Shown here piece after piece: positions 210 through 7,392 of a DNA stretch of 64,000 nucleotides. A program made the position numbers and the translations under genes. Position 1 is the stretch's first letter. Each line of letters starts with the position of its first letter. The DNA is from Actinomadura graeca (lineage in GTDB: Bacteria > Actinomycetota > Actinomycetes > Streptosporangiales > Streptosporangiaceae), in assembly GCF_019175365.1 (NCBI RefSeq), contig NZ_CP059572.1:62001-126000 (forward strand), written 5' to 3'. Under the pieces are notes generated by a model. The model worked only from the letters and a program-made list of their open reading frames with translations. It was not told the origin of the DNA and did not search any database.

Positions 210-1139
210 TCAGGGCGTGCGGGCCGCCCCGACCAGCTCCGCCACGCCCGGCAGGACCGCGTCCGCGACCGTGATCCTCCGGTCGATCAGCCCGGCGGCG
301 TGGAAGAGGTCGGCCGCGCGCTGCTGCTCGGCGACGAACTCCCCGCTCACCGGCTCCAGGCCGAACGGCCGGTGCCGCAGGGCGTGCTCCCAGGCTGCCG
401 GGTCGCCGCCGTCGTCGGCCGCGAACAGCTTCGCCGCCTCGGCCGGGTTCTCCTTGATCCAGGCGTCCGACTCGCGCAGCGCGGCGACGATGGCCGCCAG
501 CTCCTCCCGGCGCTCCTCGGCGAAGTCGCGGCGCGTGAACCACAGCGACCGGTGGCTGAACAGGCCGCCGGTCTCGATGAGCGTGCGCGGGGCCGCCTCC
601 CGCTCCACCCGCGTCAGCGCCGGGTACGAGCCGACCCACGCGTCGACCTCGCGGTCCAGGAACAGCTGCGCGGCGTCGCCGTAGGCGTCCACCGGCTCGA
701 TGTCGCTCCAGCCGAGGCCGGCGCCGTCCAGCGCGAACAGCAGCAGCGTCGTCTGCCAGGAGCCGTGCCCGAGCGCGACCCTGCGGCCCTTGAGGTCGGC
801 GGGCGAGGCGATGCCCGAGTCCTCGTGGACGACGAGCCGCCCGTTCTCGTGCCGCGGGCCCGACGTCGCCACGTACACGATGTCGTGGCCCTTGGCCTGC
901 GCCGTGACCGGCGGTGTCGAGCCGGTGCCGATGAAGTCGTACCCGCCGTCGAAGAGGTGGTCGCCGTGCGCGGACGGCAGGCCCTCGGCGGGCGACGGCC
1001 GGTCCCCGGACGGCAGCGAGCGGAAGTCCACCCACTCGACGTCGGGGAGGGAACGCTCCAGGACGCCCCGGTGGCGCAGCACCCACAGGGAGTTGTTGCT
1101 CGGGAAGTAGCCGACGCGGACGGGCTTGGACTCGGACAT
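210..1139 (-). CDS. SsuA-like substrate-binding protein without a signal peptide
   Basis: 309 aa with the NMT1/SsuA-type periplasmic-binding fold: an N-terminal VRVGYFPSNNSLWVL strand-loop, a GYDFIGTGSTPPVTAQAKG segment that normally forms the ligand cleft, then DLKGRRVALGHGSW and VDAWVGSYPAL. Such proteins normally bind sulfonates or taurine outside the cell. This one starts directly with MSESKPVRVGYF and has neither a hydrophobic signal sequence nor a lipobox. Its ATG shares one base with the stop of the upstream monooxygenase gene (TGATG), so no upstream extension is available. It is the last gene of the sulfur operon, which already encodes a lipoprotein binding protein. A cytoplasmic role as substrate carrier or as an enzyme of the same fold, like the neighbouring DszB-like protein, is my inference. 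It has no DszB-type N-terminal CPVP cysteine. Confidence 0.8.
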   Translation of the reverse strand: MSESKPVRVGYFPSNNSLWVLRHRGVLERSLPDVEWVDFRSLPSGDRPSPAEGLPSAHGDHLFDGGYDFIGTGSTPPVTAQAKGHDIVYVATSGPRHENGRLVVHEDSGIASPADLKGRRVALGHGSWQTTLLLFALDGAGLGWSDIEPVDAYGDAAQLFLDREVDAWVGSYPALTRVEREAAPRTLIETGGLFSHRSLWFTRRDFAEERREELAAIVAALRESDAWIKENPAEAAKLFAADDGGDPAAWEHALRHRPFGLEPVSGEFVAEQQRAADLFHAAGLIDRRITVADAVLPGVAELVGAARTP

Positions 1140-2308
1140 CAGGGGGTTCCTCTCGTCGCGGAGATGGGGGAGTGGTCGCGGAGGTCGTGGCCGCGCAGCA
1201 GGGGCAGCACCCGCTCGCCCACGCGGTACGCCTCCTCCAGGTGGGGCACACCGGCGAGGATGAACGCGTCCACGCCGATGCCGATCAGTTCGTCAAGCCG
1301 CGCGGCGACCTGCGCGTGACTGCCGACGAGGCCGAACGCCGGGCCGCCCCGCAGCAGGTGGAAGCCGCCCCACACGTTCGGGGCCGCCTCCAGCTCGCGG
1401 TAGTGCGTGACCGGCCAGCCGACGAAGGACGAGCTGCGCAGCCATCCGACCGAGTCGCCCGTGGCCTCGGGGCCGCGGAGCCGGGCGGGGTCGACGTGCC
1501 GCCAGCCGCGCCGGATCTCGTCCCAGGCCTCCTCCTCGGTCTCGCGGGCGAGCACGTCGACGCGCACCGCGAACCGCGGCGCCCGCCCGAGCGCCTCGGT
1601 GTGCTCGCGCACCTGCGCGAACTTGGCGGCCAGCGCCTCGAAGGGCTCCAGCCACGACAGGTAGTAGTCGGCGTGCCGCCCGGCGGCCCGGATCGCCGCG
1701 GGCGAGGAGCCGGAGAAGTAGATCTCCGGGAACGGCTGGCGGGCGAGCGGACCGGGCAGCCCGGCGCCCTCCACGCGGTAGAAGCGGCCCTCGTAGTCGA
1801 ACGGCCCGCCGTCCCACACGCCCTTCAGCACGTCGAGGAACTCCGAGGTCCGCGCGTACCGGTCGTCGTGGTCGACCTTGTCGCCCCACCACAGCTGCGG
1901 GGGCCCGCCGCCACCGGAGATGACGTTGTAGACCACGCGCCCGCCGGTCACCCGCTGGAGGCTCGCCGACATCCGCGCGGCCTGCACCGGATGCAGGAAC
2001 CCCGGCTGGTAGGCGATCATGAACCGGTAGGTGGTGGTCTCCCGGGCCAGGCTCGCGGCCGCCGCCCAGGGGTCGTCGGTGAACGGGAACGACGGCAGCA
2101 GCCCGCCGACGAACCCCGACAGCTCCGACGCCCGCGCCACGTCCGCCATGTGGTCGAGGTGGCTGTACCCGTCGCCGCGCCCGCCGCGGACGCCGGGCGT
2201 GATGGCGCCGGGCTCGCCCGGTGCCCAGTCCCCGCGGCTCGCGACGCGGCGGCGCAGCGAGCGCTGGTCACCGTGGGTCCCGATCCGCCAGTAGATGTCA
2301 ATCGGCAT
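1139..2308 (-). CDS. ssuD: SsuD-like FMNH2-dependent alkanesulfonate monooxygenase (LLM family)
   Basis: 389 aa, close to the 381 aa of E. coli SsuD. Family enzymes use reduced FMN and oxygen to split the C-S bond of sulfonates, giving an aldehyde and sulfite. Visible SsuD hallmarks are the N-terminal IGTHGD, the SASLQRVTGGR region, YFSGSSP, the PNVWGGFHLLRGG segment, and the C-terminal GIGVDAFILAGVPHLEEAYR. No flavin reductase is encoded in the operon, so FMNH2 must come from elsewhere. The ATG at 2308 overlaps the end of the preceding LLM gene by 11 nt, suggesting coupled translation. The extra N-terminal 'GDWAPGEPGAITPGVRGGRG' loop differs from E. coli SsuD, so the substrate may differ. 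Confidence 0.88.
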   Translation of the reverse strand: MPIDIYWRIGTHGDQRSLRRRVASRGDWAPGEPGAITPGVRGGRGDGYSHLDHMADVARASELSGFVGGLLPSFPFTDDPWAAAASLARETTTYRFMIAYQPGFLHPVQAARMSASLQRVTGGRVVYNVISGGGGPPQLWWGDKVDHDDRYARTSEFLDVLKGVWDGGPFDYEGRFYRVEGAGLPGPLARQPFPEIYFSGSSPAAIRAAGRHADYYLSWLEPFEALAAKFAQVREHTEALGRAPRFAVRVDVLARETEEEAWDEIRRGWRHVDPARLRGPEATGDSVGWLRSSSFVGWPVTHYRELEAAPNVWGGFHLLRGGPAFGLVGSHAQVAARLDELIGIGVDAFILAGVPHLEEAYRVGERVLPLLRGHDLRDHSPISATRGTP

Positions 2309-3341
2309 GCGCGTGCTCCCTGCTCCTGTCCGGCGTCCCCGCCGTGTCCGGTGCCCCCGCCGTGCCGGGGGTCTCCGCGGTGCCCGGGGCGCCCGCCGGG
2401 CCCGTGCGGGCCAGCAGGGGGAGCAGGTTCTCGCCCAGGCGGTAGGTCTCCTCGATGTGCGGCACGGCCTGCAGGACGAACGTGGTGACGCCGCGCGCGG
2501 CGAAGTCCCCGATCACCTCCGCGACGTCCTCGTACGAGCCGACGAGCCCCGAGGGCGGGGCGCCCGCGGCGGCGCGGCGGGCGGCCTCGGCCGCGGCCTC
2601 CTCGCCGTCCTCGCGCGCCAGCACGGGCAGGGTCAGCCCGGCCGCCACGGCCCGGCGGTGGACCGCCGCCCGCCCGCGGAGGTCGGCGGTGAGCGCGTCC
2701 AGGTCGTCCCCGAGATCGAAGACGTGCACGTCGGCGTGCCGCGCCGACAGGTCGAGGGCCTCCGTGGACGTCCCGGTCAGATGGACGCGGGGGAACGGCC
2801 GGCTGGACAGCGGCTCCTGGAAGCCGCCCGCCAGCACATGGAAGAACCGTCCCTCGTAGGTGTAGGACTCCTCGTGCCACACGCCCTTGGCGATGGTGAG
2901 GAACTCGTCCGCGCGCGCGTAGCGGTCGAGGCCCTCCACGAAGTCGCCCTGGGCCCGCGCGACGGCCGGGTCGAGGTCTACCGACAGGCGCCAGTCGAGC
3001 CTCCCGCCGGAGAAGCGCTGCAACGACGCCGACACCTTCGCCGCGTACACCGGCGTGGCGACGCCGGGATGCAGGCCCGCGACGCCGCGCAGCCACCGGC
3101 TCGCCCGCAGCAGCCCGGACGTGACGACGACCGACTCCTCGCCGCCCGGGTCGAACGGCGCGAGCGCCCCGTCGAAGCCGACGATCTCGGCGGCCCGGCC
3201 GGCCTCCGCCAGATGGTCGAACGGCCCGTACACGCCGTACCGCAGGTCGGTCACGAACGGCGGGAGGGAGGCGGGCGGCGGCCCCCAGTCCCCGCGGGCG
3301 CCGTCCCCGCGTGACGGCAGCGTGACGATGAACTCCGTCAT
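2298..3341 (-). CDS. Second LLM-class flavin-dependent monooxygenase
   Basis: 347 aa bacterial-luciferase-like TIM-barrel protein, paralogous to the next gene. It contains the KVSASLQRFSGGRLDW segment, HLTGTSTEALDLSARHAD, and a C-terminal GVTTFVLQAVPHIEETYR. It lacks the PNxWxGxxLxRGG stretch of SsuD and is about 40 residues shorter, so it is probably not a redundant copy. The last ~30 residues are a Gly/Ala/Thr-rich low-complexity tail. The ATG at 3341 overlaps the stop of the DszB-like gene (ATGA). In the dibenzothiophene pathway, LLM monooxygenase DszA makes the sulfinate that DszB cleaves. By analogy this enzyme could generate a sulfinate for its neighbour; that role is inference. Confidence 0.82.
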   Translation of the reverse strand: MTEFIVTLPSRGDGARGDWGPPPASLPPFVTDLRYGVYGPFDHLAEAGRAAEIVGFDGALAPFDPGGEESVVVTSGLLRASRWLRGVAGLHPGVATPVYAAKVSASLQRFSGGRLDWRLSVDLDPAVARAQGDFVEGLDRYARADEFLTIAKGVWHEESYTYEGRFFHVLAGGFQEPLSSRPFPRVHLTGTSTEALDLSARHADVHVFDLGDDLDALTADLRGRAAVHRRAVAAGLTLPVLAREDGEEAAAEAARRAAAGAPPSGLVGSYEDVAEVIGDFAARGVTTFVLQAVPHIEETYRLGENLLPLLARTGPAGAPGTAETPGTAGAPDTAGTPDRSREHAHAD

Positions 3342-4366
3342 GCCGCCACCTCTCCCGCGGCCAGGCGCTCGCGCGCCTCGCGGAGCGGCTCGGGCGCCGC
3401 CCAGGCGTCCAGGTCCACGTCGGCGTCCAGGAACCCGTGCACGAGCAGGAAGTCCTTCTGGACGCGCAGGAGCGCGCGCCGCTCGCCCGACAGGTCGGGG
3501 TGCAGGGAGCGGTGGAAGCCGCCCCGGTAGGCGGTGGCGACGCCCTCGGCGTCCGAGCGGGTCTCGCCGGCGAGGATCTCGCGGACGGCGCCGAGGTCGC
3601 CCGCGGCCCATTCCGCCGCCCGCAGCGTCTGCGTCAGGAACGTCACCACCAGGTCGGGGCGTTCCTCCAGCAGCCGCTCGTGGACGGTGATGGGCCTCGG
3701 GGTGCCGTTGTTGACGCGGGTCCGCGGGTCGGGGTGGGCGTCCAGGTCGACGGCGACGGCGAGGCCGAGCTCGCGGGCCTGGTCGGCGGCCCGCGCGCCC
3801 TTGACGTACACCGCGTCCACCTCCCCGCGGACCAGGTGGTCGAGGCCGGGCCACGACAGCCGCCCGCCGCGCGCGTCCCGTCCCACGGAGGGGGACAGGT
3901 CGGCCGGGACCTCCACGAACGTGACGTCGTCGAGGGTGAGGCCGCCCTGTGCGAGGGCGCCCTTCACCCCGTGCAGGGCCATCGCGCGCGGGAAGCTCGT
4001 CGCGCGCGTCCCGGCCCAGCCGGGCAGGGCGACCCGGACGCCGCGCAGCCCGGCGGCGTCCTCGATCCCCGACCCGGGCCGCACCAGGATCGACTGCCAT
4101 TCCTCGATCCACGTCAGACCGATCAGCCGTGTCGGCGCGCCCGCCGAGCGGGCCGCGAGGGCGGGGACGTTCCCGCCCTCGCGGAACAGCCCGAGCAGGT
4201 CGTGGTCGAAGTGGTGCCGGGCCAGCTCCGGGCCGGCGTCCTGCAGGACGCCCACCTCCAGCCCGGCGGCGCCGAACGCCTCCGACAGCCAGCCCCGGCG
4301 GTGCGCCAGGCCGCTGGCCGTCGGCACCGGGCAGCGGGTGAACCAGATTCTCTCTACCGAAGACAC
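3338..4366 (-). CDS. DszB-like sulfinate desulfinase
   Basis: 342 aa protein of the binding-protein fold, resembling 2'-hydroxybiphenyl-2-sulfinate desulfinase DszB (365 aa), which releases sulfite from an aryl sulfinate. The catalytic set of DszB (Cys27, His60, Arg70 and the RxGG motif) aligns with Cys12 in TRCPVPTASG, His52 in RHHFDHD and Arg62 in FREGGN. The C-terminus also matches (DAWAAPEPL against DszB QWAAPEF). There is no signal peptide, as expected for a cytoplasmic enzyme. I chose the GTG at 4366 because GAGGAG lies 4 nt upstream; a TTG at 4378 overlapping the ATPase stop would add four residues. It lies between the SsuB-like ATPase and two LLM monooxygenases, with gene overlaps on the 3' side. 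Automatic pipelines would probably call it an ABC substrate-binding protein. The substrate is unknown. Confidence 0.78.
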   Translation of the reverse strand: MSSVERIWFTRCPVPTASGLAHRRGWLSEAFGAAGLEVGVLQDAGPELARHHFDHDLLGLFREGGNVPALAARSAGAPTRLIGLTWIEEWQSILVRPGSGIEDAAGLRGVRVALPGWAGTRATSFPRAMALHGVKGALAQGGLTLDDVTFVEVPADLSPSVGRDARGGRLSWPGLDHLVRGEVDAVYVKGARAADQARELGLAVAVDLDAHPDPRTRVNNGTPRPITVHERLLEERPDLVVTFLTQTLRAAEWAAGDLGAVREILAGETRSDAEGVATAYRGGFHRSLHPDLSGERRALLRVQKDFLLVHGFLDADVDLDAWAAPEPLREARERLAAGEVAA

Positions 4367-4374
4367 GGCACTCC

Positions 4375-5097
4375 TCAACGCGGTTCGGGTACCGGGGCCG
4401 GGACGGGCCCGACCCCGAGATGGGACAGGAAGGCCCGGCGGAGCCGGGCGAGGGCCGGGTCGTCGCGGTCGCGGGGCCGCGGCAGGCCGATGACCTCGTC
4501 GGCGGCGAAGACCCCGTCGCGCAGCACCGCGACCCGGTCGGCGAGCCGCAGCGCCTCGTCCACGTCATGGGTGACGAGGAGGACCGCGGGGCGGTGCCGG
4601 GCGCACAGCTCGGCGACGAGGTCCTGCATCTGCAGCCGGGTGAGCGCGTCGAGGGGGGCGAACGGCTCGTCCAGCAGCAGCACCTGCGGGTCGCGGACCA
4701 GCGCCCGCGCCAGCGCCACCCGCTGCGCCTCGCCGCCCGACAGCGTCGCGGGCCAGGACCGCCCCTGCCCCGCCAGCCCGACCTCGTCCAGCGCGCGCCG
4801 CCCCGCCTTCCGGGACGTGCGCGGCAGGCCCAGCGTCACGTTCGGCAGGACGCGCCGGGCCCGCACCAGCCGCGGCTCCTGGTAGACGGTCGTGCGCCGC
4901 GGGGCGGCGAGCACCGTCCCGGCGTCGGGGGACTGGAGGCCCGCGAGGACGCGCAGGAGGGTGGTCTTGCCGGTGCCGCTGGGCCCGAGCAGGGCGAAGA
5001 ACTCCCCGCGCCGGATCTCCAGGTCCACACCGTCCAGGACGGTCTTCGGGCCGAACGACTTGCGCAGGCCGGTGATGCGCACGGCGACGTCGCTCAC
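4375..5097 (-). CDS. ssuB: Sulfonate-type ABC transporter ATP-binding protein
   Basis: 240 aa ABC ATPase of the nitrate/sulfonate/taurine importer class. The Walker A motif GPSGTGKTT is at residues 38-46. The signature ATLSGGEAQRVALARAL, Walker B VLLLDEPF and switch THDVDEA follow in order. The protein energises uptake through the adjacent permease on the cytoplasmic face. The GTG start at 5097 overlaps the permease stop (GTGA), which fixes the start. The protein ends in a Pro-rich tail (PVPAPVPEPR). Confidence 0.92.
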   Translation of the reverse strand: MSDVAVRITGLRKSFGPKTVLDGVDLEIRRGEFFALLGPSGTGKTTLLRVLAGLQSPDAGTVLAAPRRTTVYQEPRLVRARRVLPNVTLGLPRTSRKAGRRALDEVGLAGQGRSWPATLSGGEAQRVALARALVRDPQVLLLDEPFAPLDALTRLQMQDLVAELCARHRPAVLLVTHDVDEALRLADRVAVLRDGVFAADEVIGLPRPRDRDDPALARLRRAFLSHLGVGPVPAPVPEPR

Positions 5098-5993
5098 CGG
5101 GCCGCCACCTGCCCGCGCCACGGCATCGCCACCCGCTCCACGCCCCGGATCACCAGGTCGATGACCAGGCCGATCAGCGCGTAGATCAGGATGCACAGCA
5201 CCATGTAGTCGTTGCGGTAGTACTGCTGCGCGAGTGTGACCAGGTAGCCGATGCCCTCGCTCGCGCCGATCTGCTCGGCGGCGATCAGCCCGGTCAGCGA
5301 GACCGACAGGCTGATGCGCAGCGCCATCAGTATGCTCGGCAGCGCGCTCGGCACGATCACCGCGGCGGCCAGCCGGGCGCCGCGCAGCCCGAAGCCGCGT
5401 GCCGCCTCCACCACCTCGCGGTCGACGCCGCGCACGCCGAGGTAGGTGTAGGCGTACATCGGCGCGGCCGTCGCCACCGCGATCAGGACGACCTTGAAGG
5501 TCTCGCCGACGCCGAACCAGGAGATGAACAGCGGCACGAGCGCGAGGAACGGCACGGCCCGCTTCATCTGCATCGTCGGGTCGATCAGCTCCTCGCCGAG
5601 CGCCGACAGCCCCGCCGCGATCCCGAGCAGCAGCCCGGCGCCGGCGCCGGCGAGCACGCCCAGCGCCGCGCGCCGTCCCGACGCCAGCAGGTAGTCGGTG
5701 AGCTGCCCGGTCTCGGCCAGCTCGCGCAGCGCCCCGAACACCGCTCCGGGCCCGGTCAGGACGTCCGGCGGGATCCGCCCGCTCGCCGACCCGTACCACC
5801 AGGCCGCGAGCAGCAGCACCGGCACCGCGGTCCGGACCGCGAGCGACACCGCCGGGGGACGGTGCCGGGGCCCGATCCGGGGCGGGACGCGGAGGTCCGC
5901 GGTCCCCCCGCCGGACCCGCCGGCCGTCGCGTCCGGCGTCGTGTCCGGCGGCTCCCGGCGGACGGGCGGCGCGGTGGATCGCCCGAGCGTCAT
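5094..5993 (-). CDS. ssuC: Sulfonate-type ABC transporter permease
   Basis: 299 aa BPD-type inner-membrane permease with about six hydrophobic segments after a Pro/Thr/Gly-rich cytoplasmic N-terminus of some 45 residues. The EAA coupling loop reads EVVEAARGFGLRGARLAAAVIVPSALP in the expected place; it contacts the ATPase. RAVPFLALVPLFISWFG is typical of the SsuC/TauC family. Its ATG at 5993 overlaps the stop of the lipoprotein gene (ATGA), and its stop overlaps the ATPase start, so the three transporter genes are translationally coupled. Confidence 0.92.
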   Translation of the reverse strand: MTLGRSTAPPVRREPPDTTPDATAGGSGGGTADLRVPPRIGPRHRPPAVSLAVRTAVPVLLLAAWWYGSASGRIPPDVLTGPGAVFGALRELAETGQLTDYLLASGRRAALGVLAGAGAGLLLGIAAGLSALGEELIDPTMQMKRAVPFLALVPLFISWFGVGETFKVVLIAVATAAPMYAYTYLGVRGVDREVVEAARGFGLRGARLAAAVIVPSALPSILMALRISLSVSLTGLIAAEQIGASEGIGYLVTLAQQYYRNDYMVLCILIYALIGLVIDLVIRGVERVAMPWRGQVAAR

Positions 5994-7051
5994 GACGCCC
6001 GCCCCGACGGCGCCGCCGAGGCCGGTGCCGCCCTCAGGTCGAAGATCACCTCGGCGGCCGGGATGGCGGCGGGCAGGACGCCGTACTGGCGGAAGATCCC
6101 GGCGACGTCCTCGACGTACTTCCCGTCGGCCGCGCCCGCGTACCGGGGGACGTTCTGGAACCGGGCCTCGGCGAGGTTGTCCTGGAGGCGCGCCCCCGAG
6201 ACCGCCGTCGGCCCCTTCTTGAGGAACACGTTCTGGAACCGCTCGGGCGAGCGCTTCTCCTGCTCGGTCAGCTCGCGCAGGGTGTCGAGGACGACCCTGA
6301 CGGCCTCGGGGTGCCGGTCGAGCAGCTCCGTCCGCGCGGCCCAGATGCTGAGGTCGCGGTCGGGGAGGTCGCGCCCGTTGACCAGGACGCGGGCGCCCTT
6401 GGCGACCACCTCGGGGTAGGCGTCGACGATCGCCCACCAGGCGTCCACCTTGCCGGTGGCGAACGCCGAGGCGCCCTGCACCGGGTTGAGGTAGACCCGC
6501 TTGACCCGGTCGGCCGGGATCCCGTTCTGCCGCAGCGCGAGCAGCAGCAGGTACTCGCCGCGGCCGCCCTTGTTGACCGCGACCTGCTTGCCGACCAGGT
6601 CCTTGACGGACCGGACGGGGCTGTCGGCGGGCACGACCAAGCCGTCCCGCGGGGGCGCGGACCGGTCGGTCACCGGGTCGGTGAAGGAGAAGATCTTGAT
6701 GTTGCGGCTGTTGGCGAGGTATCCCAGCGCGGGCGAGATCGCGCCCTCCAGGACGTTCACGGACCCGGAGCGGACGGCGTCGATCGTCGCGGTGAACGAG
6801 GCGTACGAGCCGCCCCACTCCACCCGCGCGCCGACGGCCTTCAGCCGCTCCTCCAGGATCCCCTCGCGCTTGGCGTAGGCGAGCGGGCCGGCGTTCCCGG
6901 GGTCCTTGAGCTTGATCACGGCGGCCCCGCCGGGGCCGCCCGCGGTGCCGCCCGCCTCGGCCTTCCCGCCGCACGCGGAGGCGAGGCTGAGCAGGGCGGC
7001 GGCCGCGGCCGCGGCGGCGGCGAGACGTGAACGGTGACGGAAGTCGAACAT
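5990..7051 (-). CDS. ssuA: Sulfonate-type ABC transporter substrate-binding lipoprotein
   Basis: 353 aa with a lipoprotein signal: basic MFDFRHRSR, an Ala/Leu-rich core, and the lipobox LASAC, so the mature protein should be lipid-anchored outside the membrane. The body has the NMT1/SsuA fold: VIKLKDPGNAGPLAYAKREG, an EGAISPALGYLANSRN cleft segment, DLVGKQVAVNKGGRGEYLL and VDAWWAIVDAYPE. This ATG is preceded by GAGGGG; an upstream ATG and GTG would add up to 18 residues. It is the first large gene of the operon, about 230 nt downstream of the leader peptide, and would set the specificity of import. Confidence 0.9.
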   Translation of the reverse strand: MFDFRHRSRLAAAAAAAAALLSLASACGGKAEAGGTAGGPGGAAVIKLKDPGNAGPLAYAKREGILEERLKAVGARVEWGGSYASFTATIDAVRSGSVNVLEGAISPALGYLANSRNIKIFSFTDPVTDRSAPPRDGLVVPADSPVRSVKDLVGKQVAVNKGGRGEYLLLLALRQNGIPADRVKRVYLNPVQGASAFATGKVDAWWAIVDAYPEVVAKGARVLVNGRDLPDRDLSIWAARTELLDRHPEAVRVVLDTLRELTEQEKRSPERFQNVFLKKGPTAVSGARLQDNLAEARFQNVPRYAGAADGKYVEDVAGIFRQYGVLPAAIPAAEVIFDLRAAPASAAPSGRAS

Positions 7052-7284
7052 GGTGGCGTAGCCCCTCATGTGATCGGGCGGGGCGGCGGCGGGCGCCGGC
7101 CGCACGCCGGCGGGAGCCCTGCCGGCGCCGGACGGCGGCGACGGCGGGCTCGGTGCGGAGAACGGTGGTGTGTGCGAGGAAAGGGCCCGGTCGCGGGCGC
7201 GTCAGTGCGCCGGACGGGCGGACGGGGCGGGAAGGGCCCGGCCGGGTCGCGCGCGGGGGCGCGGAGGCGGCGCGGGCGGCGCGG

Positions 7285-7356: not shown

Positions 7357-7364
7357 ATTTCCCA

Positions 7365-7392
7365 TAATTAAGGTAGGAATACTGGAAGTCAA
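7365..7392 (-). promoter_or_regulatory. Sigma-70-like promoter of the sulfur operon with an imperfect AT-rich palindrome
   Basis: On the minus strand TTGACT (7387-7392) and TAATTA (7365-7370) are separated by 16 nt and lie just upstream of the leader ATG. This is one of the few AT-rich spots in the window. A partly symmetric TnCC-TTAATTAT-GGnA centred on the -10 could be a repressor site. The rest of 7093-7535 between the genes holds only the leader region and GC-rich sequence without ORFs I trust. Confidence 0.6.

Follow-up and report, generated by a model that had tools for sequence, protein, structure and literature searches.

The locus and its genes

The window analyzed here, a stretch of 64,000 nucleotides from the 9-Mb genome of the soil actinomycete Actinomadura graeca, carries on its minus strand an operon of seven genes, the fourth of which (3338..4366) encodes a protein related to DszB, the sulfinate desulfinase of the 4S pathway. 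This product probably acts in the cytosol, without a cofactor, as a sulfinate desulfinase of the DszB superfamily, like that encoded by the bds genes of Gordonia terrae C-6, and its gene is embedded in a putative sulfur-scavenging operon. In the order of transcription, the operon consists of genes for substrate-binding protein 1 (SBP1), an importer permease, its ATPase, the DszB-like protein, luciferase-like monooxygenase 1 (LLM1), LLM2, and SBP2. Its features are as follows, FMNH2 denoting reduced flavin mononucleotide:

3338..4366, minus strand: predicted DszB-like sulfinate desulfinase with Cys12, His52, Arg62-x-Gly-Gly65 and Thr10; leaderless
5990..7105, minus strand: SBP1, SsuA-like substrate-binding lipoprotein (Pfam NMT1; SsuA_fam 120.2 bits against a cut-off of 163.5)
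5094..6020, minus strand: importer permease (BPD_transp_1; best NCBIfam match SsuC, 183.8 bits against 347; likely start near 5993)
4375..5157, minus strand: importer ATPase (ABC_tran; best NCBIfam match sulfonate ATPase, 219.7 bits against 395; likely start near 5097)
2298..3341, minus strand: LLM1, luciferase-like monooxygenase (Bac_luciferase; shortened relative to SsuD)
1139..2308, minus strand: LLM2, SsuD-like FMNH2 monooxygenase (Bac_luciferase; SsuD 1nqk, E 2.2e-67)
210..1139, minus strand: SBP2, second SsuA-like protein (SsuA 2x26, E 3.4e-29; no signal peptide, no cysteine)
7364..7392, minus strand: promoter-like site upstream of SBP1 (TTGACT, 17 nt, AATTAT; a consensus match only)

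The DszB-like open reading frame (ORF) runs from 4366 to 3338, opens with a GTG codon immediately preceded by GAGGAG, and encodes 342 amino acids. Upstream of the GTG the frame stays open for 66 codons, which include a single further ATG, GTG, TTG, CTG, or ATT codon, a TTG four codons before the GTG; because this is the only alternative start, a signal peptide is excluded. The initial annotation had described a gene whose product lacks a signal peptide, placed between an importer and two luciferase-like monooxygenases, and inspection of the start codons and the domain matches bears out each of these points, with the importer upstream and the monooxygenases downstream. It is the only such gene in its own genome at E ≤ 1e-10.

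The genes for the DszB-like protein, LLM1, LLM2, and SBP2 follow one another without a gap or with a one-base overlap, the ATG of SBP2 overlapping the stop codon of LLM2. For SBP1, the likelier start is an ATG at 7051, and its only cysteine lies inside a lipobox-like LSLASAC, as read by eye. About 430 bases separate SBP1 from an upstream aldehyde dehydrogenase gene, and this upstream region holds one promoter-like site, compared with a mean of 0.0 (standard deviation 0.1) in shuffled sequence. Downstream, the operon is met by a converging plus-strand gene with a kinase-like N-terminus (named by eye).

Kinship with DszB rather than SsuA

When the DszB-like protein was compared by phmmer with 177,635 distinct Protein Data Bank (PDB) sequences, the leading matches were DszB (E 2.7e-17) and its C27S form (8.7e-16); the other nine are annexins and others, the best at E 0.0026, and SsuA is absent from the matches at E ≤ 1. 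The alignment spans query residues 6-331 and residues 21-360 of the DszB chain, amounting to full-length homology, and pairs Cys12 with Cys27, His52 with His60, Arg62 with Arg70, REGG with RFGG, and WAAPE with WAAPE. The match to the Cys/His/Arg/RxGG set of DszB and the shared WAAPE motif, both previously proposed, are thus reproduced in this register. As a control, SBP2 from the same operon (210-1139) matches SsuA 2x26 at E 3.4e-29 and, in the same PDB comparison, no DszB at E ≤ 0.001.

Structure and phylogeny point the same way. The predicted fold is nearest to that of DszB, and whole-chain superposition of the model on DszB covers 318 residues at 2.8 Å. The tree of DszB-like and SsuA-like proteins that the initial annotation had suggested favors the desulfinase. 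In this tree DszB itself, with two rows, makes up a separate branch (support 100/97), outside the 31 DszB-like rows (support 98/91).

The protein could instead be a leaderless, noncatalytic binding protein of the SsuA-like kind that carries or senses organosulfur compounds in the cytosol and uses its DszB-like residues for binding only. Several relatives are indeed labeled "ABC transporter substrate-binding protein", a label that fits the weak Pfam NMT1 match (28.9 bits, over a cut-off of 20.5) and the SsuA_fam score (60.1 bits, below a cut-off of 163.5). We consider such a role unlikely, given this SsuA_fam shortfall, the PDB matches to DszB and not SsuA, the tree, and the fact that, in a protein so poor in sulfur, the catalytic cysteine is the only one present in all 32 diversified orthologs described below. 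As for an actual transport binding protein of the SsuA/TauA type, it was rejected in view of the tree, the missing signal peptide, the conservation of the active site, and the same SsuA_fam score. The alignment, fold, tree, active-site conservation, and single cysteine together lend strong support to the original proposal of a DszB-type enzyme, and, judged from sequence, the enzyme assignment is very probably right.

Conservation of the active site

The 80 named loci discussed below were found with motifs containing Cys12 or RxGG and are biased for counts of active-site residues. In a homolog set gathered free of motifs (51 rows, 49 distinct, close congeners included), the Cys, His, Arg, Gly, and Gly are kept in 46 of the 49 distinct rows; the three exceptions are a fragment without its N-terminus and two diverged rows with lost residues. 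Among DszB-like genes at plasmid loci, 13 of 15 keep all five residues, whereas in one of the others Asp replaces His, and in the second Cys and His are replaced by Ser and Ile, respectively. A distant DszB-like gene on a Rhizobium leguminosarum plasmid (L031:5944-7110) likewise keeps the Cys, His, Arg, Gly, and Gly; its neighbors, encoding a 2-hydroxyacyl-CoA dehydratase, an activase, a rhodanese, and a sulfate permease, are unlike those of other DszB-like genes.

The primary matches carry Cys at position 12, and each of the 32 diversified orthologs with more than 55% identity (drawn from 41 diversified rows) contains exactly one cysteine. DszB is likewise described as a single-cysteine protein (PMC8557817). 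Furthermore, Ser25, part of a computed model of the DszB active site (PMC6100217), aligns by phmmer with Thr10, which is invariant in a 40-row alignment.

The pattern differs among the 22 Pseudomonas paralogs in the scanned loci, where position 12 is Cys in 12 and Ser in 10 while the other four positions are kept. Ser-bearing forms occur, for example, as minus-strand paralogs in loci L052, L058, L061, L064, L073, and L080, the first of which also has a Cys form. By analogy with the C27S change, which is reported to inactivate DszB (PMC6100217), these Ser-type paralogs may bind or act differently.

The scarcity of sulfur extends to the whole operon. SBP1, the permease, the ATPase, and the DszB-like protein contain one cysteine each, and LLM1, LLM2, and SBP2 contain none. 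Cysteine makes up 0.14% of residues in four operon genes versus 0.74% in 29 other ORFs of the window, and methionine 0.57% versus 1.73%; the ORFs were chosen by codon-position G+C, a filter that four of the seven operon genes passed. Enzymes made by Rhodococcus qingshengii IGTS8 under sulfate starvation are described as low in sulfur (PMC8557817).

The altered monooxygenases

Against the SsuD equivalog model, LLM2 and LLM1 score 266.5 and 134.8 bits, with a cut-off of 518.2, and the NtaA/DmoA model gives the neighboring monooxygenases 87.8 and 41.6 bits against 279.7. Their departure from SsuD also shows at Cys54, Arg226, His228, Arg297, and Tyr331, which we take to be the active-site residues of SsuD and whose numbering was checked by counting on the LLM2-SsuD alignment. 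LLM2 of the window keeps two of the five (Arg226 and Arg297), with Thr at Cys54, Asp at His228, and Val at Tyr331. Across 55 rows, made up of the window and 54 loci, LLM2 always carries Thr in place of Cys54 and keeps both arginines, with Asp (54/55) or Glu (1/55) at the His228 position and Asn, Val, Gly, or Arg at that of Tyr331. LLM1 of the window retains none of the five; across the same 55 rows, no LLM1 has Cys54, His228, Arg297, or Tyr331, and Arg226 is kept in 15, with the alignment uncertain in the shortened part of the protein.

Because of these non-SsuD residues, the substrate or chemistry of the LLM pair probably differs from that of SsuD. The description of the operon as "alkanesulfonate-type" was therefore loose, as its LLM partners fall far under the SsuD cut-off and lack three (LLM2) and all (LLM1) of the five residues. 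Relative to the ssu operon (SsuA-E), the Actinomadura operon shares the type of importer and an LLM2 homologous to SsuD, but it lacks a flavin reductase gene and has an added desulfinase. The LLM reaction would need a flavin reductase; the operon encodes none, and 12 matches to the flavin reductase family occur in the genome.

Conservation of the operon and distribution of the family

All six partners lie nearby and on the same strand in 54 of the 80 named loci, which come from Actinomadura, Nonomuraea, Streptosporangium, Actinokineospora, Saccharothrix, Nocardia, Rhodococcus, Amycolatopsis, Mumia, and others; in a Thermobifida locus (L050), SBP2 precedes the LLM genes. The remaining 26 comprise 23 loci from Pseudomonas, one from Methylophilus, and two from Nocardia that are cut by contig ends. 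SBP2 is conserved with the operon at 57-87% identity. In 13 of the 54 complete loci, the preceding stop lies so close that at most 16 residues fit ahead of the first conserved motif, leaving SBP2 leaderless; in the other 41 the frame is open further upstream or, in one locus, the motif was not found.

A gene for a class II aldolase (PF00596) recurs in the neighborhood. It is present in 29 of the 54 complete loci, between LLM2 and SBP2 where read. In Sphingobium and in 16 of the 23 Pseudomonas loci it is the next gene after the DszB-like one, whereas in Methylophilus it immediately precedes that gene. Examples are L099:11262-11966, L058:9035-9730, L089:7244-7948, and L023:8101-8772 (Rhodococcus, Pseudomonas, Methylophilus, and Sphingobium, respectively). 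This partner may be a clue to the kind of carbon skeleton that the substrate has.

The frequent aldolase, hinting at other carbon chemistry, also bears on whether the protein, as an enzyme that shares this fold and depends on Cys, catalyzes a different reaction, such as desulfonation, decarboxylation, or another C-X cleavage. The fold is shared by Thi5, MqnD, and 4,5-dihydroxyphthalate decarboxylase, and the data do not constrain an aromatic substrate. Such a reaction nevertheless seems improbable, since Arg62, His52, Gly65, and Thr10, the counterparts of the sulfinate-binding residues of DszB, are all kept, and a sulfonate-type importer and FMNH2 monooxygenases adjoin the gene.

The family is widespread. 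A scan of species genomes yielded at least 568 confirmed relatives. Matches occur in 24 of 60 same-genus genomes (E ≤ 1e-10, own genome included) and in 28 of 150 order-level genomes (E ≤ 1e-20, up to 14 candidates scored per genome). The tallies at the level of class (at least 7 of 296) and phylum (at least 2 of 396) are lower bounds, with up to seven and five candidates scored per genome. By comparison, 90 of 72,556 plasmid records contain a match at E ≤ 1e-5. A rare or plasmid-only gene is ruled out by the same-genus, order-level, and plasmid counts. The initial annotation had held that relatives are known mainly from plasmids and had pointed to the chromosomal setting here; the first view gives way to the genome scan, and the setting is neither rare nor new, considering the number of relatives and the published chromosomal operons. 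Two same-genus relatives (L016 and L017; 78% and 79%) each have one in-frame TGA in the matched stretch, which may reflect either decay or sequencing error.

Published operons of the same order

The closest published counterpart is the chromosomal bdsABC cluster of G. terrae C-6, described as encoding a desulfinase (GTC6_01605), an FMNH2 monooxygenase (01600), and an alkanesulfonate monooxygenase (01595), flanked by genes for an ATPase (01610), a permease (01615), a binding protein (01620), a hypothetical protein (01590), and a further binding protein (01585) (PMC3868597). GTC6_01585 to 01620 are all listed as up on benzothiophene, and Escherichia coli extracts with bdsABC together made o-hydroxystyrene, with NADH, FMN, and DszD needed (PMC3868597). 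By its published annotation, the cluster has the same eight-place order as the form found in Rhodococcus and Nocardia, namely, binding protein, permease, ATPase, desulfinase, FMNH2 monooxygenase, alkanesulfonate monooxygenase, hypothetical gene, and binding protein. The Actinomadura operon matches this order except that no gene occupies the "hypothetical" place between LLM2 and SBP2.

A second counterpart lies on the chromosome of R. qingshengii IGTS8, where peg4799 (SsuA), 4801 (SsuB), 4802 ("SsuA/DszB"), 4804 (SsuD), and 4806 (SsuA) are listed as more abundant on dibenzothiophene (PMC8557817); these five genes fit the order of the Actinomadura operon. Another R. qingshengii strain (L099) has the same order and a DszB-like protein 60% identical to that of the window; its LLM2 and SBP2 genes are separated by one for a class II aldolase, which the Actinomadura operon lacks.

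Judged by titles and the beginnings of abstracts in the open-license literature, no paper was found that treats DszB-like proteins or chromosomal DszB homologs as a family. In the portions of these sources that bear on the subject, a paper on sulfolane reports no dszB (PMC6395730), Gordonia alkanivorans 135 is described as lacking a DszB analogue and reportedly desulfurizes dibenzothiophene otherwise (PMC11852219), and two papers on per- and polyfluoroalkyl substances mention desulfinases only in passing (PMC11022551, PMC7661421). With a common family and published look-alikes of the operon, the surprise is smaller than earlier claimed.

Proposed pathway and its significance

In the pathway that we favor, the SBP1/permease/ATPase importer would take in an organosulfur compound, which FMNH2-dependent LLM2, perhaps with LLM1, would oxidize to a sulfinate; the precedent for placing this step before the desulfinase is the published operon of the same gene order. 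Arg62, His52, and Gly65 of the DszB-like protein would bind the sulfinate, and Cys12 would break the C-S bond without a cofactor, by protonating the carbon or attacking the sulfur. For DszB, both mechanisms have been proposed, with protonation favored (PMC6100217). The released sulfite would enter assimilation, and the operon would presumably be induced by sulfur starvation. As a first guess, the substrate might be benzothiophene-like or another aryl or vinyl sulfone.

Several observations weigh against this assignment to a bds-type desulfinase. Identity to DszB is only about 28%, and Ser replaces Cys12 in 10 of the 22 Pseudomonas paralogs, so the fold may also have uses that need no cysteine. 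Gene order and annotation, and not sequence, are the grounds for regarding G. terrae BdsA as an ortholog, and the rise of the IGTS8 proteins on dibenzothiophene may only reflect sulfate starvation. Further, LLM1 is devoid of the SsuD residues, and three of the five are replaced in LLM2.

A broader proposal, which we advance tentatively and regard as rather doubtful in its entirety, is that the protein represents one branch of a large, mostly misannotated family of desulfinases that soil bacteria would employ on natural sulfones or sulfinates and not on oil. In this scheme LLM1 and LLM2 would form a remodeled two-subunit FMNH2 enzyme that makes the sulfinate, SBP2 would be a cytosolic substrate carrier, and the class II aldolase of Rhodococcus, Nocardia, Pseudomonas, Methylophilus, and Sphingobium would process the carbon skeleton of the substrate. 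If the enzyme assignment is right, hundreds of genes of a kind called ABC substrate-binding proteins would encode C-S-cleaving enzymes, which would change the way in which soil genomes are interpreted with regard to sulfur scavenging from sulfones and sulfinates. There would also be many diverse desulfinases to draw on in addition to DszB, the slow enzyme of fuel desulfurization, and cultured actinomycetes could be used to look for the operon's natural substrate.

Relation to the 4S pathway and a probable second source of sulfinate

The DszB-like protein resembles 4S-pathway DszB in its full-length homology, fold, Cys/His/Arg and RxGG residues, and single cysteine, but differs in its low identity, its separate branch in the tree, and its partners, which for DszB are DszA and DszC. 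The dsz genes are described as plasmid-borne in IGTS8 (PMC8557817), and a record of M. intracellulare subsp. yongonense has DszB with DszA and DszC on a plasmid. That the gene encodes a true 4S-pathway DszB (EC 3.13.1.3) is highly improbable, even though DszB is its best PDB match and the genome also encodes a DszC-like protein (41%) and a DszA-like monooxygenase of the NtaA/DmoA family (39%). The two DszB rows stand on a branch of their own, and the operon's partners are SsuD-like LLM proteins in place of DszA and DszC; on these grounds the candidate was rejected. Moreover, about 3.6 Mb separate the operon from the DszC- and DszA-like genes, which sit at an unlinked locus near 3.64 Mb (C1:3629000-3648900), beside genes for SfnG and SfnB that score above their NCBIfam cut-offs. 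The combination of SfnG, SfnB, DszC-like, and NtaA/DmoA-type proteins makes this locus probably another source of sulfinate in the organism. ORFs resembling ABC transporters and oxidoreductases were also seen there by eye.
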